Source of the DNA: Nitratireductor soli | Lineage (GTDB): Bacteria; Pseudomonadota; Alphaproteobacteria; Rhizobiales; Rhizobiaceae | DNA: 64,000 nt | Direction: 5' to 3' | Assembly: GCF_001050155.1 (NCBI RefSeq) | Contig: NZ_LFVY01000008.1 | Location: 1 to 64,000 of the forward strand | In this document: positions 44,084 to 50,665 of the stretch, in pieces | How the letters are laid out: each line of letters opens with the position of its first letter | How positions within the stretch are numbered: position 1 is the stretch's first letter | The notes under the pieces: model-generated | Told to the model about the DNA's origin: nothing | Seen by the model: the letters and a program-made list of their open reading frames with translations, nothing else | Databases searched by the model: none | Translations under genes and position numbers: made by a program

Positions 44084-44592
44084 TGGCCGCTTCCTCCGAG
44101 CAAGTCGCGATGCGGGCTCGGCGGTGGTTAAGACTGGCGACCGCCGTGCTGTGCGGCGCCTTTCTCGTCGCCCTGACGCTGGTCACGGTGATCGACGTCA
44201 TCGGCCGCTACCTGCTTTCAAGCCCGCTGCCCGGCGCTTCCGAATACACGGAGATCCTGCTGATGGCGATCGTCTTCATGGGATTGCCGGCGGTGTGCCT
44301 GGATGACGGGCACATCAGCGTCGACCTTCTGACGGCGAGCCTGCGCGGCGCGGCCCAGAAGCTGCAATTGATGGCCGCAAGGCTGATCGTCTCGGCGGTT
44401 CTCGCCGTCATCGCGTGGCAGTTGTGGAAGCACGGCACGCAGCTGGCAAGCTACAATGAGGTGACGGTGTATCTGCGCGCTCCGCTCGGGCCCTTCGCCC
44501 AGGTGACGGCGGTCATCGCCGGCATCTGCGCGGTGGTCAGCTTTGCCACGGCGCTCTTCAGGCTGCCCAAGGGCGATGGCGGGGGCGTGTGA
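44083..44592 (+). CDS. TRAP transporter small permease (DctQ family)
   Basis: This 169-residue protein has four hydrophobic helices and the DctQ landmarks DVIGRYLLSSPLPGASEYTE and LDDGHISVD. Its ATG overlaps the dctP stop (TAATG), and its own stop overlaps the dctM start (TGATG), so all three TRAP genes are translationally coupled. Confidence 0.93.
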   Translation: MAASSEQVAMRARRWLRLATAVLCGAFLVALTLVTVIDVIGRYLLSSPLPGASEYTEILLMAIVFMGLPAVCLDDGHISVDLLTASLRGAAQKLQLMAARLIVSAVLAVIAWQLWKHGTQLASYNEVTVYLRAPLGPFAQVTAVIAGICAVVSFATALFRLPKGDGGGV

Positions 44593-45878
44593 TGGCGTGG
44601 CCGATCGGCATGGCGGCGCTGCTCGCCCTGATCTTCGCCGGCGTTCCCATCGCCTTCGCCATGACGGCGGTCGGGCTCATCGGCGTGGTCTCGATCATCG
44701 GCTGGCAGCCGGCGCTGGCGATGATCGGACAGGTCTATTTCGACAGCGGCCGCAGCTACACGCTGTCGGTGGTTCCGCTGTTCCTGCTGATGGGCAATCT
44801 CGTCGTTCAATCAGGTGTCGCGGGCGATCTGTATGCCGCTGCCAATGCGTGGCTCAGGCACCGCAAGGGCGGGCTCGCCATGGCCACCATCGTCGCCTGC
44901 GGCGGTTTCTCGTCGGTCTGCGGATCGTCGCTCGCCACCACCGCGACCATGGCCCGCATCTCGCTGCCGGCAATGCGCAAATATGGCTATTCGGATCGGC
45001 TGGCGGCCTCGTCGATTGCCGCCGGCGGGACGCTCGGCATTCTCATTCCGCCGTCGGTGATCCTGGTCATCTACGGCATTCTCACCCAGCAGAACATCGG
45101 CAAACTGTTTCTGGCCGGCATCCTGCCGGGCATTGTCGGCGTCATCGGCTACATGATCGCCGTGCGCCTGTCGCTGGTCATGTACCGCGAGCATCTGGAG
45201 ACCGAACCGAAGCTGCCGCTGATCGACCGCATCCGCGCGCTGCGCGGCGTGGTCTGGGCGCTCGGTCTGTTCGTGTTCGTGCTGGGCGGCATCTATCTGG
45301 GCGTGTTCACGGCGACGGAAGCTGCCGGCATGGGGGCGGGGGGCGCCTTCCTGCTGACCTTCATGCGCGGCCGGCTGACCCTGCGCGACACGCTGTCGAC
45401 GCTGTTCGACACGGCCAAGACCACGGCGGTGATGTTCTTCATCCTGTTCGGCGCGCTGTATTTCCTGAACTACGTCAATTTCTCCGGATTGACGGGCGAT
45501 CTCAGGAACTGGATCAACGCGCTCGGCGTCGGGCCGTACCAGGTCATCTTCATGGTGGTCATCGTCTATCTGGTGCTCGGCTGCCTGCTCGAGAGCATCT
45601 CGATGATCACGCTGACGGTGCCGATCCTGTTTCCCATCGTCACCGGCCTCGGCTTCGACCCGATCTGGTTCGGCATCTTCGTGGTCATCGCCACCGAGTT
45701 GAGCTTCATCACGCCGCCCATCGGCATGAACGTCTTCGTCATGCGCACGGTCGCGCCCGACATTCCGATCGAACGGATCTTCGCCGGCATCGTCCCTTTC
45801 GTGGCGATGGACGTCGTGCGGCTCGGGCTGCTGATCGCGCTTCCCGCGATGGCGCTCTTGATCCCGAACTCCATGTGA
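44592..45878 (+). CDS. TRAP transporter large permease (DctM family)
   Basis: This 428-residue multi-helix protein shows GSSLATTATMARISLPAM, AAGGTLGILIPPSVI and VFTATEAAGMGA, the DctM landmarks, and resembles the one at 608-1909. It completes a DctPQM system for sodium-coupled uptake. The MarR gene begins 10 bp downstream. A GTG at 44589 is an alternative start, but ATG at 44592 overlaps the dctQ stop. Confidence 0.94.
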   Translation: MAWPIGMAALLALIFAGVPIAFAMTAVGLIGVVSIIGWQPALAMIGQVYFDSGRSYTLSVVPLFLLMGNLVVQSGVAGDLYAAANAWLRHRKGGLAMATIVACGGFSSVCGSSLATTATMARISLPAMRKYGYSDRLAASSIAAGGTLGILIPPSVILVIYGILTQQNIGKLFLAGILPGIVGVIGYMIAVRLSLVMYREHLETEPKLPLIDRIRALRGVVWALGLFVFVLGGIYLGVFTATEAAGMGAGGAFLLTFMRGRLTLRDTLSTLFDTAKTTAVMFFILFGALYFLNYVNFSGLTGDLRNWINALGVGPYQVIFMVVIVYLVLGCLLESISMITLTVPILFPIVTGLGFDPIWFGIFVVIATELSFITPPIGMNVFVMRTVAPDIPIERIFAGIVPFVAMDVVRLGLLIALPAMALLIPNSM

Positions 45879-45888
45879 CAGGACGGTC

Positions 45889-46404
45889 ATGAACACCATA
45901 GTCAAGAAAGAACACGGGATCGATGTTGCGGGCAATAGCGGGTTTGTCGGCGAGTACCTGCTGTATCTGCTCGCGGCGGCGAGCGATGTGGCCAGCGCCG
46001 ATTTTCATGCGCAGGTACGCGAGCGGGGATTGAAGGTGCCCGAATGGCGCATTCTTGCCTGCCTCAGCGATACCGACGGCCAGATGGTCACCCGATTGTC
46101 CCAGCTCTCCCTGATCGAGCAGTCGCATCTCACCAAGATCGTCGACCAGATGGCGGTCAAGGGCCTCGTGAAGCGACGCAGCGACGACCGCGACCGACGG
46201 CGCGTGCGCGTCTACCTGACCGAAAGCGGACGCGTGCTGGGGCTCGAACTGGTCGAGGCGGCGCGGGCGCATGAGCACGCCATCGTCAAGCAGATGCGAC
46301 CGGGCGAGGCGGCGCTGCTGAAGCAGGCGCTGAAGCATATCCACGCGCTCTATGGCGCCGGCCTGTCCGCTCTGCCGGAGGAAACGGAGACAACATCACG
46401 ATGA
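45889..46404 (+). CDS. MarR-family transcriptional regulator
   Basis: This 171-residue protein has the MarR winged helix (MVTRLSQLSLIEQSHLTKIVDQM followed by the wing DDRDRRRVRVYLTESG). MarR proteins often respond to aromatic carboxylates or CoA thioesters and repress nearby catabolic genes. Located directly behind the TRAP genes, it probably controls the divergent promoter at 42848-43057. Its stop overlaps the RidA-like gene (ATGA). Confidence 0.92.
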   Translation: MNTIVKKEHGIDVAGNSGFVGEYLLYLLAAASDVASADFHAQVRERGLKVPEWRILACLSDTDGQMVTRLSQLSLIEQSHLTKIVDQMAVKGLVKRRSDDRDRRRVRVYLTESGRVLGLELVEAARAHEHAIVKQMRPGEAALLKQALKHIHALYGAGLSALPEETETTSR

Positions 46405-46850
46405 ACGAGATCGCCAATCCCAACGCGGCAAAACCGGCCGGGCTCCTGCACCGCATCCTGCAGCCGGAAGGCTGGCCGACGCCGAAGGGCTACGCCAACG
46501 CCGTGATGACCGATGGCGGCCTCATCTTCACGGGCGGTTTGGTCGGCTGGGACGCGCAGGGCCGCTTCCCCGAAGGCTTCGTCGCGCAGGCGCACCAGAC
46601 GTTCCGCAACATAAGCGCGGTTCTGGCGGAGGCCGGCGCCGGCCCCGAGCACCTGACGCGGCTGACCTGGTACGTCAGGAGCGTCGAGGACTATCTGGCC
46701 GATCCGAAGGGCCTCGGCCAGGCCTATCGCGATGTTTTCGGGCGCTGCTTCCCGGCCATGGCGACGGTGGAGGTGACGCGCCTGGTGGAACCGGACGCGC
46801 TTCTGGAAATCGAGGCGACGGCAGTCCTGCCGGCCAGCCCGGCGAAATGA
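46401..46850 (+). CDS. RidA/YjgF-family protein
   Basis: This 149-residue protein belongs to the RidA superfamily, trimers that hydrolyse reactive enamines and imines or related intermediates. The core VMTDGGLIFTGGLVGWDAQGRFP and the C-terminal FPAMATVEVTRLVEPDALLEIEATA are typical. The conserved Arg of true RidA enzymes appears at the expected MATVEVTRL position only in part, so it may be an Rid subfamily with another substrate. It is coupled to marR by 4 bp. The 27-bp repeat array starts on the last base of its stop codon. Confidence 0.9.
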   Translation: MNEIANPNAAKPAGLLHRILQPEGWPTPKGYANAVMTDGGLIFTGGLVGWDAQGRFPEGFVAQAHQTFRNISAVLAEAGAGPEHLTRLTWYVRSVEDYLADPKGLGQAYRDVFGRCFPAMATVEVTRLVEPDALLEIEATAVLPASPAK

Positions 46851-47308
46851 TGGCCTGCCATTCGCAGGTATTGGGAATGGCCTGCTTTCCGCAGGCGATG
46901 GGAACGGCCTGCCTTTCGCAGGCGATGGGAACGGCCTGCCTTTCGCAGGCGATGGGAACGGCCTGCCTTTCGCAGGCGATGGGAACGGCCTGCCTTTCGC
47001 AGGCGATGGGAACGGCCTGCCTTTCGCAGGCGATGGGAACGGCCTGCCTTTCGCAGGCGATGGGAACGGCCTGCCTTTCGCAGGCGATGGGAACGGCCTG
47101 CCTTTCGCAGGCGATGGGAACGGCCTGCCTTTCGCAGGCGATGGGAACGGCCTGCCTTTCGCAGGCGATGGGAACGGCCTGCCTTTCGCAGGCGATGGGA
47201 ACGGCCTGCCTTTCGCAGGCGATGGGAACGGCCTGCCTTTCGCAGGCGATGGGAACGGCCTGCCTTTCGCAGGCGATGGGAACGGCCTGCCTTTCGCAGG
47301 CGATGGGA
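46850..47308. repeat. 17 x 27-bp tandem array of hairpin units
   Basis: The 459 bases are exactly 17 units of 27 bp. Units 3-17 are identical, and units 1 and 2 (46850-46903) are slightly changed. Each unit holds GCCTGC-CTTTC-GCAGGC, a 6-bp stem with a 5-base loop, followed by GATGGGAAC. The array fills the whole gap between the RidA-like gene and the gene at 47320, and its last unit supplies part of the GGGAGGAG ribosome-binding site. There are no spacers. All reading frames are open because 27 is a multiple of three; I see no evidence that it is translated. Confidence 0.95.
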
Positions 47309-47319
47309 GGAGAAGCAAG

Positions 47320-48396
47320 ATGAAGGTAGTGGTGGTGGGCGGAGGCAACGGCTCCTATGCGGCGGCGGCGGATTTCGCCGAAGCGGGGCACGATGTGCGC
47401 TGGTGGCGGCGCGACCGCGAAAGCTTTGCCGATATCACGGCCGCCGGCGGCATCACGCTGACCGACCACAAGGGCAGCCGCCACGTCGCCGTGGCGCCGA
47501 CCGACGATCTTGCCGTGGCGCTCAAGGGAGCTGAGCTGATCGTCGCGCCGACGCCCGCCTTCGCCCAGGAGGACATCGCCGCCCGGCTGGCGCCGCATCT
47601 GGAAGACGGGCAGGTGATCTATCTGCCGCCCGGCACGTTCGGCTCCTACATCATGATGAAGCGCATTCGCGATGCCGGCTCCACGGCGGACATCGCCATC
47701 GCCGAGACGGGCACGCTTCCATGGCTGACGCGCAAGCAGGGGCCGCTCGAGGTCCGCGTGACGACGCGCGCCTCGCGCCTGCCGACGGGCGTGCTGCCGG
47801 CGCGGCATACGGACCACGCCATCAAGGCCATAGAAGGTGTGTTTCCCGCATCGATCGAGCCCGTTGAGGATGCGCTGTCCGGTGCGCTGATGAATGCCGG
47901 CCCGATCATCCATCCGCCGCTGATCCTGATGAACGCCGGCCCCATCGAGCATTTCGAACGCTGGGACATTCACAATGAAGGCACGCAGCCGGCGATCCGC
48001 CGCACGCATACGGCCCTCGACAATGAGCGCATCGCCATCCGCGAGGCGCTGGGCTATGGCGCACCGCATTTCCCGCTCGCCGACCATTACGAGACCAGCG
48101 ACTGGATGTATGGCAATCTGGCGCATGACAAGCTCGTCGGCTCCGGCGACTGGCACGAGAACCTCGACCTGAAGTCGCACCGCTATATGCTGGAAGATGT
48201 CGGCCTCGGCCTCGCCTTCCTCGTCTCTGTGGGCGAATGGGCGGGCGTTCCCTGTCCCGTTGCCGCCGGCCTTCTGGCGATCGCCGGGGCGGTGGCCGAG
48301 CGCGATTTCCGCCAAGAGGGCCGCACGATGGAACAGCTTGGCCTGGCCGGTGAAAGCCGCGAGGCCGTGCAGACGATGCTGCGCGAGGGGTTGTGA
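47320..48396 (+). CDS. NAD/NADP octopine/nopaline dehydrogenase-family protein
   Basis: This 358-residue protein has an N-terminal Rossmann domain (VVVGGGNGSYAAAADF) and the helical octopine dehydrogenase C-terminal domain (ALDNERIAIREALGYG, then the conserved His in GAPHFPLADHYE). The family reduces imines formed from amino acids and keto acids or oxidises the reverse products. The start at 47320 follows GGGAGGAGAAG, made by the last repeat unit. It is coupled to the 3-hydroxyacyl-CoA dehydrogenase gene by overlap. The substrate is unknown; the RidA-like neighbour also handles imines, which fits. Confidence 0.9.
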   Translation: MKVVVVGGGNGSYAAAADFAEAGHDVRWWRRDRESFADITAAGGITLTDHKGSRHVAVAPTDDLAVALKGAELIVAPTPAFAQEDIAARLAPHLEDGQVIYLPPGTFGSYIMMKRIRDAGSTADIAIAETGTLPWLTRKQGPLEVRVTTRASRLPTGVLPARHTDHAIKAIEGVFPASIEPVEDALSGALMNAGPIIHPPLILMNAGPIEHFERWDIHNEGTQPAIRRTHTALDNERIAIREALGYGAPHFPLADHYETSDWMYGNLAHDKLVGSGDWHENLDLKSHRYMLEDVGLGLAFLVSVGEWAGVPCPVAAGLLAIAGAVAERDFRQEGRTMEQLGLAGESREAVQTMLREGL

Positions 48397-49379
48397 TGGC
48401 GCACGGTGTGACAATTGCCTGTATCGGCGCCGGCCGCATGGGCCGCGGCATTGCGCAATGCGTCGCCTATGCCGGCCATGCCGTGCGCCTGATCGATGCG
48501 AAGGAGCGCGACGCGGATGCGTTCGCGACATTGCGGGACGAGGCGCTGAACGAAATTCGCACGGCGCTCGAGGCCATCGCATCGCTGGGCGCTTTCAAAC
48601 CCGATGCCGTTCCGACGATCATGAAGCGGGTCAGCATCGTGCCACGCGGCGAGGCTGCGGCGGGGCTTTCGGGCGCGCGCATCGCATTCGAGGGCGTGCC
48701 CGAGGTGCTGGAGGCCAAGCGCGATGCGTTCGCATTGTTCGATGCCCATGCCGATGGCGAGGCGGTGCTTGCCTCCACCACCTCGACCATGCTGTCGACC
48801 GAACTTGCCGGCCTGACGGCATCGCCGGAGCGCTTCCTCAACGCCCATTGGCTCAACCCGGCCTTCCTGATGCCGCTGGTCGAGCTCAGCCCGGCTGATG
48901 AGACGACCGAGGCGACGATCGCCTTCGTGCGGGAGTTCCTGGAAGGCATCGGCAAGGTGCCGATCGTCTGCAAGGCGTCTCCCGGCTACATCGTGCCGCG
49001 CATCCAGGCGCTGGCGATGAACGAGGCGGCACGCATCGTCGAAGAAGGCGTGGCGAGCGCCGAGGACGTCGACAAGGCGGTGACCTATGGTTTCGGCCTG
49101 CGCTTCGGTGTGCTCGGCCTGCTCGAATTCATCGACTGGGGCGGCGGCGACATCCTCTACTACGCCAGCCGCTACCTTGCCGGCGCGTTCGACGACGAGC
49201 GCTACGCGGCGCCGGAAATCATCAGCAGGAACATGGAGGAGGGACGGATCGGCCTGAAGACCGGTTCGGGCTTCTTCGATTATGCCGGCGTCGACGTCGA
49301 TGCCTATCGCCAGCGCCGGATGGCCGCCTTCCTGAAGGCGCTGGACCATGCCGGGCTCGTGCGTGCGCCGGTTCTTTGA
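48396..49379 (+). CDS. 3-hydroxyacyl-CoA dehydrogenase-family protein
   Basis: This 327-residue protein has the GAGRMGRGIAQ nucleotide motif, the catalytic His in NAHWLNPAFLMPLVE (about residue 148), and the C-terminal dimer domain with FGLRFGVLGLLEF and GLKTGSGFFDY. It is the 3-hydroxybutyryl-CoA dehydrogenase type, which may also act on free hydroxy-acids such as L-carnitine or gulonate. It overlaps the preceding dehydrogenase gene by one base. A second TRAP system starts 69 bp downstream, probably in the same operon. Confidence 0.92.
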   Translation: MAHGVTIACIGAGRMGRGIAQCVAYAGHAVRLIDAKERDADAFATLRDEALNEIRTALEAIASLGAFKPDAVPTIMKRVSIVPRGEAAAGLSGARIAFEGVPEVLEAKRDAFALFDAHADGEAVLASTTSTMLSTELAGLTASPERFLNAHWLNPAFLMPLVELSPADETTEATIAFVREFLEGIGKVPIVCKASPGYIVPRIQALAMNEAARIVEEGVASAEDVDKAVTYGFGLRFGVLGLLEFIDWGGGDILYYASRYLAGAFDDERYAAPEIISRNMEEGRIGLKTGSGFFDYAGVDVDAYRQRRMAAFLKALDHAGLVRAPVL

Positions 49380-50474: not shown

Positions 50475-50486
50475 CACCCGTGCAAC

Positions 50487-50529
50487 GCTTCAATCGAAAT
50501 GAAGGCTTCGCATTCATTTCGATTGAAGC
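50487..50529. other. perfect 17-bp stem-loop after dctP
   Basis: GCTTCAATCGAAATGAA (50487-50503) pairs perfectly with 50513-50529 around a 9-base loop. It begins 12 bp after the dctP stop. There is no T-run behind it. It is likely an mRNA-stabilising or attenuating element that sets the binding protein to permease ratio. Confidence 0.7.
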
Positions 50530-50552
50530 AAAGTTGCCCTGGATTCAATAAT

Positions 50553-50609
50553 CTAGTGGCCTGCTTGTCCCAGTCCAAACCTGTCGGTTTGGCTGGGGCA
50601 GGACACTAG
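50553..50609. other. second large stem-loop between dctP and dctQ
   Basis: Outer arms CTAGTGGCCTGC and GCAGGACACTAG (one mismatch) enclose inner arms CCCAGTCCAAACC and GGTTTGGCTGGG with a TGTC loop. Together they form a 57-base hairpin. It lies behind the 17-bp stem at 50487-50529 and before the small permease gene. Its repeat-like form suggests an inserted palindromic element. Confidence 0.7.
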
Positions 50610-50665
50610 AGCGGCGGACACTCTGGACGGGTGTCCCCCGCTTCCTCACCGGGGAGCCGCCCTTC

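Follow-up and report, generated by a model that had tools for sequence, protein, structure and literature searches.

How does a gap between two genes of a putative operon come to be filled by some seventeen copies of a 27-bp, hairpin-forming unit, and does the number of copies matter to the gene that follows? The question is raised by a spacer in the window, the whole 64,000-nt stretch of a Nitratireductor soli contig that was analysed here, in which such an array separates a ridA gene from a dehydrogenase gene.

The array and its gene neighbourhood

Tandem repeat analysis with TRF identified an array at 46852–47308 (period 27, 16.9 copies, 97% matches, score 865), which is the only large array of the window, the other two TRF rows scoring 50 and 52. 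It lies on the forward strand between a RidA-family gene (46401–46850; PF01042, Pfam E 2.7e-19) and a gene of the octopine/nopaline dehydrogenase family (47320–48396; PF02317, E 6.4e-29), which bears out a preliminary description of about 17 units of 27 bp between genes of these two kinds. The array had been said to fill the entire gap, and it does occupy 457 of the 469 nt between the ridA stop codon (46848–46850) and the dehydrogenase ATG (47320–47322), leaving 12 nt, one before the array and 11 after it. Genes on the same strand run in the order DctP, DctQ and DctM transporter subunits, MarR, RidA, dehydrogenase, 3-hydroxyacyl-CoA-dehydrogenase-family protein and a second DctP, and we infer from their spacing that these neighbours form one operon. 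The MarR-family regulator gene (45889–46404; E 1.8e-11) overlaps the start of ridA, and the 3-hydroxyacyl-CoA-dehydrogenase-family gene follows the dehydrogenase gene (48393–49379, starting with the GTG at 48393; the Pfam search, E 4e-43, took 48396 as the start). ridA and the dehydrogenase gene had been called coupled; with 469 nt between them, they are at most putatively so. A second RidA-family gene of the host, in C58:148981–152010, is 46.9% identical over 129 aa, and a 30-bp segment of it matches the 3′ part of the ridA in the window at 97% identity. An inverted repeat with a 17-bp stem and a 9-nt loop lies within 50475–50665, in the spacer 3′ of the second DctP gene.

The unit sequence, GGCCTGCCTTTCGCAGGCGATGGGAAC, is exact in 14 copies (units 3–16, 46906–47283), each of which contains the hairpin GCCTGC-N5-GCAGGC (−9.7 kcal/mol). 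Units 1 and 2, at the ridA end (46852–46905), are diverged: unit 2 has two mismatches to GGCCTGCCTTTCGCAGGCGATGGGAAC, and unit 1 (46852–46878) differs at 5 of 27 positions by hand count, outside the three-mismatch limit of our searches. Unit 17 is partial (25 nt, 47284–47308) and runs into the ribosome-binding site; when it is extended to 47310, only its last two bases differ, where the Shine-Dalgarno stretch continues. The earlier count of fifteen identical units is thus correct for 25 of the 27 bases, with 14 exact copies over the full 27. The Shine-Dalgarno stretch of the dehydrogenase gene, GGGAGGAG (47305–47312), begins inside unit 17, so the last unit contributes to the ribosome-binding site as had been proposed, and its predicted duplex of −14.0 kcal/mol compares with −8.9 kcal/mol for two ordinary units, given an assumed 3′ end of the 16S rRNA. 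With head-to-tail, near-identical units of tens of base pairs between two predicted genes, the array is a minisatellite, and its tandem repetition is far beyond chance. A search of literature titles found none about this array.

Distribution and age of the repeat

The host draft genome comprises 5,116,425 bases in 58 contigs, contig 57 of which opens with the window, and all 16 matches to the unit at up to three mismatches fall within the array; the search for the unit elsewhere in the genome that the preliminary description had called for therefore led back to this single site. At the same threshold, the unit was found in one of 199 family genomes (three from the genus) and in one of 10 genus genomes, or one of 206 different genomes combined, and in each case the genome was the host's own. 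Counted per strand, the genome has 36 exact stems; the array accounts for 16, and the other 20 compare with 12 for a reversed-pattern control. With the unit confined to one site and the exact stem near control frequency elsewhere, an origin from a dispersed repeat was rejected, as was a REP/BIME element, since these counts reveal no dispersed palindrome. Matches to the stem pattern at up to three mismatches are more numerous outside the array than in 100 shuffles (153 versus 99.5, sd 9.7) and are spread along the whole window (1–64000), an excess that presumably reflects base and codon composition. As a candidate MarR operator, the array palindrome would be expected at the promoter of the MarR gene or of its operon; it recurs with at most one mismatch at a single place outside the array, 38063, and nowhere near the MarR gene, and with two mismatches at 44339, 46456 and 46575, all inside genes. 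A plasmid or viral source was also rejected: four plasmid records match parts of 45889–49379 at 60–80% identity and none covers 80% of it, and the exact unit occurs in no viral contig searched. Rfam models gave no match to 45800–48500 at E values up to 1.

Tandem units at this junction are present in two of the 10 genus genomes, namely the host, with 17, and N. pacificus (G004), the closest of the nine congeners, with three diverged ones. The gap between ridA and the dehydrogenase gene, 469 nt in the host, measures 86 nt in N. pacificus, 59 nt in G001 and in G002 (N. aquimarinus), 46 nt in G003, G005 and G009, 45 nt in G006 and G008, and −4 nt in G007. In a wider set of 80 relatives' loci, of which the first 32 were inspected at the junction, a ridA match lies just upstream in 7 of the 32, with gaps of 86, 59, 45 and 46 nt in Nitratireductor and then 34, −4 and 1 nt; in Mesorhizobium sp. 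YIM 152430, the two genes overlap directly (−4). TRF describes the N. pacificus array as 3.0 copies of period 24 with 80% matches, and parsing by hand gives units of 24, 24 and 27 nt, in each of which a tail of TGGA or GGGA comes after a hairpin; the final tail supplies the Shine-Dalgarno sequence of that species. The three units are mutually alike (0 of 2000 shuffles as good for each of the three pairs), and their likeness to the host unit is weak (p 0.011, 0.15 and 0.014). Host and N. pacificus DNA are 89.0% identical over 2086 columns that start shortly ahead of the dehydrogenase gene and run through the gene after it, and 81.5% identical over 1039 columns on the marR–ridA side, the flanks together ranging from 81.5 to 89.5%. 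Common ancestry of the units in the two species may be proposed, to which this likeness points weakly. N. pacificus has a second repeat at this place (C16:62609–62659), where the 3-hydroxyacyl-CoA-dehydrogenase gene ends: a degenerate 17 bp × 3 repeat with 82% matches and GGGACAA as its core.

The array had been taken to be a recent expansion, and the comparison supports this as probable. The expansion looks young because the unit occurs only here among the 206 genomes, the congener gaps are short (−4 to 86 nt) and N. pacificus has just three diverged units, and the 14 exact copies point the same way; it was locus-specific and probably recent.

Two further large, near-perfect arrays were found in the 1.264 Mb of the host genome surveyed, about a quarter of the total. 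One (C58:61647–62120; 117 bp × 4.1, 99% matches) lies between hprK-like and PTS EIIA-like genes; each of its units carries two palindromes that belong to a family found genome-wide, and one frame across the array terminates as ATGA at the start of the EIIA-like gene. The other (C3:179717–180263; 121 bp × 4.5, 99% matches) lies over the start of a citramalate-synthase-like gene; the names of these genes are our own reading of their translations. The palindrome family, which is REP-like (AACAGATGG-N-CCATCTGTT, often paired 69 bp apart), has 54 places in the host genome, 64 in G007, one in N. pacificus and none in the other seven genus genomes, and all 32 sites of a shorter core in 20 stretches fall between predicted genes. 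The Y1 transposase domain (PF01797) is absent from all 10 genus genomes (control positive in 5 of 14), leaving no obvious RAYT partner for this family. A survey of three other Nitratireductor genomes (0.80 Mb) and of the surroundings of the 80 relatives' loci (0.70 Mb; rows with a period of at least 10, at least 85% matches and a score of at least 70 were kept) revealed no array of comparable size. The chance that all three arrays fall in the host's share of the sequence is (1.264/2.762)^3, about 0.10 when calculated by hand with lengths pooled, and it is only suggestive that the host lineage is richer in large arrays than its relatives.

Hairpins, reading frames and the downstream gene

Each unit had been described as a small hairpin. 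The stem GCCTGC-N5-GCAGGC is indeed perfect in 16 of the 17 units, the exception being unit 1 with a single mismatch that may form a G-U pair, but the predicted minimum-energy fold of 46845–47345 consists mainly of long-range pairing between units and not of a row of small hairpins. The unit's hairpin is only mildly unusual: when the unit was shuffled 20,000 times by mononucleotide, 5.4% of the products reached a 6-bp stem, as did 6.1% of 27-mers sampled from window positions 1–46000. For the whole stretch, one of 100 shuffles matched the predicted fold in stability and the other 99 were less stable (z −2.61). In the 10 genus genomes, z-scores against shuffles for the 38-nt segment at −46 to −9 relative to the dehydrogenase start ranged from −2.16 to +0.6, below −2 only in G002, and on these values conservation of a hairpin across the genus is unconvincing. 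A sample of the host genome shows a modest enrichment of hairpins near start sites, at 12 of 95 spacers compared with 7.5 (sd 2.1) in 30 shuffles. With terminators included, stems of at least 5 bp with at least four G-C pairs occur in 31 of 95 spacers (21.2, sd 3.9, when shuffled) and stems of at least 6 bp in 27 of 95 (11.1, sd 3.1). Gene calls for these background counts came from a simple script and not a standard gene finder, so their start positions are rough.

On balance, we lean towards the view that the array is an ordinary, locus-specific intercistronic minisatellite that grew by slippage or unequal recombination and is mostly a tolerated spacer. The ancestor would have been a segment between ridA and the dehydrogenase gene made up of a small hairpin and then a Shine-Dalgarno-like GGGA, which most likely grew into an array through replication slippage or unequal recombination. 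In the simplest history, this segment was duplicated in the common ancestor with N. pacificus, or separately in each species, and the units would afterwards have been homogenised and expanded in the host species. Whatever the copy number, the last unit would leave the same ribosome-binding site before the dehydrogenase gene, and an added unit would contribute nine codons, such that neither expansion nor contraction would break a frame. Copy number may be expected to vary between strains, and any effect of it on dehydrogenase expression would be small and graded. Four observations speak against this view: the layout of hairpin and GGGA-like tail is kept in N. pacificus despite its changed sequence, which could reflect selection on structure and not neutrality; the whole array folds with the unusual stability noted above; the double overlap described below is present in as few as 5 of 95 ordinary spacers, so the spacer could be translated; and the likeness of the host unit to the N. 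pacificus units is weak.

The slippage-driven expression switch that had been suggested is unlikely in an on/off form because a change of one 27-bp unit keeps the frame and the same Shine-Dalgarno sequence is present at any number of copies. The unit is open in each of its three forward frames, and 45800–47500 contains no terminator- or attenuator-like sites (a stem plus a T run), where shuffles give 1.2 (sd 1.2), both of which also argue against such a switch. A graded effect on downstream expression is possible by analogy with the VNTR3239 repeat of Mycobacterium tuberculosis. It is quite improbable, in our estimate, that the hairpins tune the mRNA as first proposed, slowing decay or steering processing so that copy number alters the dehydrogenase level. 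A hairpin can be drawn in all 17 host units and all three N. pacificus units, and single hairpins precede the Shine-Dalgarno sequence in G001 and G002; the stability of the whole fold, the modest enrichment of hairpins near starts and the VNTR3239 precedent would also fit. Such tuning has to be set against the comparable stems of shuffled units, the orthologous regions that are mostly not clearly more stable than shuffles, a predicted fold dominated by long-range pairing and the absence of Rfam matches. An array of CsrA-binding sites was rejected, as CsrA is absent from all 10 genus genomes (control positive in 3 of 14 named genomes). The copy number itself might be wholly or partly a product of assembly, a few real units having been looped or gap-filled until they reached a length that reads or inserts dictate. 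The three large arrays of this 58-contig draft are alike in total length (457, 474 and 547 bp) despite periods of 27, 117 and 121 bp, so the copy numbers may owe something to read length or to gap filling, and the absence of arrays of that size from the congener and relatives' sequence surveyed agrees with this. We nevertheless regard such an origin as very improbable: the variant end units and the three-unit array of N. pacificus show that repetition at the junction is real, and like lengths could simply reflect what reads can resolve, three cases being few.

An unlikely but reasonable alternative to a tolerated spacer is that the array is translated, in the manner of a MIRU. Ribosomes that have completed ridA would restart at the overlapping ATG at 46847, read repeats of the nonapeptide ACLSQAMGT and reach the dehydrogenase start at 47320 through a second ATGA, keeping the operon coupled and Rho-shielded whatever the copy number. 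The frame in question (46847–47323, forward strand) spans the whole array in 158 codons, its ATG overlapping the ridA stop and its TGA overlapping the dehydrogenase ATG, both as ATGA (−4), and it also lies within a longer open frame. In N. pacificus, the corresponding frame, beginning in the ATGA of the ridA stop, stays open over 30 codons; it is in frame with the dehydrogenase gene, which means that it would form an N-terminal extension and not stop at the start. The direct −4 overlap of the two genes in G007 (by our own reading) and Mesorhizobium sp. YIM 152430 would also suit translation, as would the frame through the 117-bp array, which meets the following gene start in an ATGA. Openness, however, comes cheaply in a unit with all three forward frames open, and the codon score of the array frame (−1.23 per unit) is poor, lying between those of predicted genes (2.4, sd 1.85) and wrong frames (−5.5, sd 3.5) and below the 0.37 of the unit frame shared with the dehydrogenase gene. 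The same double overlap, of an upstream stop and a −4 downstream start, is seen in 5 of 95 ordinary spacers of 25–150 nt when ATG, GTG and TTG starts are admitted, and by our own reading the gap does not form a single continuous frame starting at such an overlap in G001, G002, G003, G005, G006, G008 or G009. Translation of the spacer frame is possible, a reading towards which these sequence features lean weakly. Its boldest form is an elastic nine-codon repeat, ATGA-coupled at every copy number and arisen from the spacer's own hairpin–Shine-Dalgarno segment as an independent, non-mycobacterial counterpart of MIRU coupling; we judge this form rather unlikely. Frame neutrality as a general property of spacer arrays was rejected, since the period is divisible by three in only two of the seven arrays called intergenic in the 1.264 Mb (one of which, on contig 3, also covers a gene start), as chance predicts, and this count equally weighs against translation of the present array.

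Comparison with known intergenic repeats

REP and BIME elements are palindromic intergenic units, of which composite and repeated forms exist, and the array resembles them in its palindromic intergenic units. REPs usually number more than 100 copies per genome, according to one report (PMC2817692), and here the array stem is near control frequency outside the array. Nor is the array part of the REP-like family of the same genome, which has another sequence.

A closer likeness is to the MIRUs of Mycobacterium, for example in the senX3–regX3 spacer, which are also tandem repeats between two adjacent genes. Like a MIRU, the array holds an open reading frame with −4 overlaps to its flanking genes, here predicted at both ends of the frame, and these overlaps recall the coupling of neighbouring genes by MIRUs (PMC12548453). 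MIRUs are dispersed units of 40–100 bp at 41 places of the H37Rv chromosome, as stated in PMC2734929, whereas the present unit is 27 bp long and confined to a single site. The VNTR3239 (ETR-F) repeat of M. tuberculosis, between rnc and fpg1, is likewise a tandem repeat in an intergenic position directly before a gene, and the same source associates it with modest differences in the mRNA of the downstream gene, generally higher with longer repeats (PMC2734929). It differs in organism, genes and sequence.

Where the same junction is known from relatives, an intercistronic minisatellite lends itself to the question of how operons cope with a lengthening spacer. The junctions of this genus, at −4, 45–59, 86 and 469 nt, provide natural sequences for testing how a longer spacer affects the gene behind it, and, were the array translated, it would illustrate how an operon can be left unharmed by repeat expansion. 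As an ordinary repeat, it is likely to serve as a marker for strain typing. The array fits a known kind, that of the M. tuberculosis repeats between adjacent genes, which two reports describe as variable between strains, the senX3–regX3 MIRUs differing between two strains (PMC4213456) and one such repeat being linked to expression (PMC2734929).
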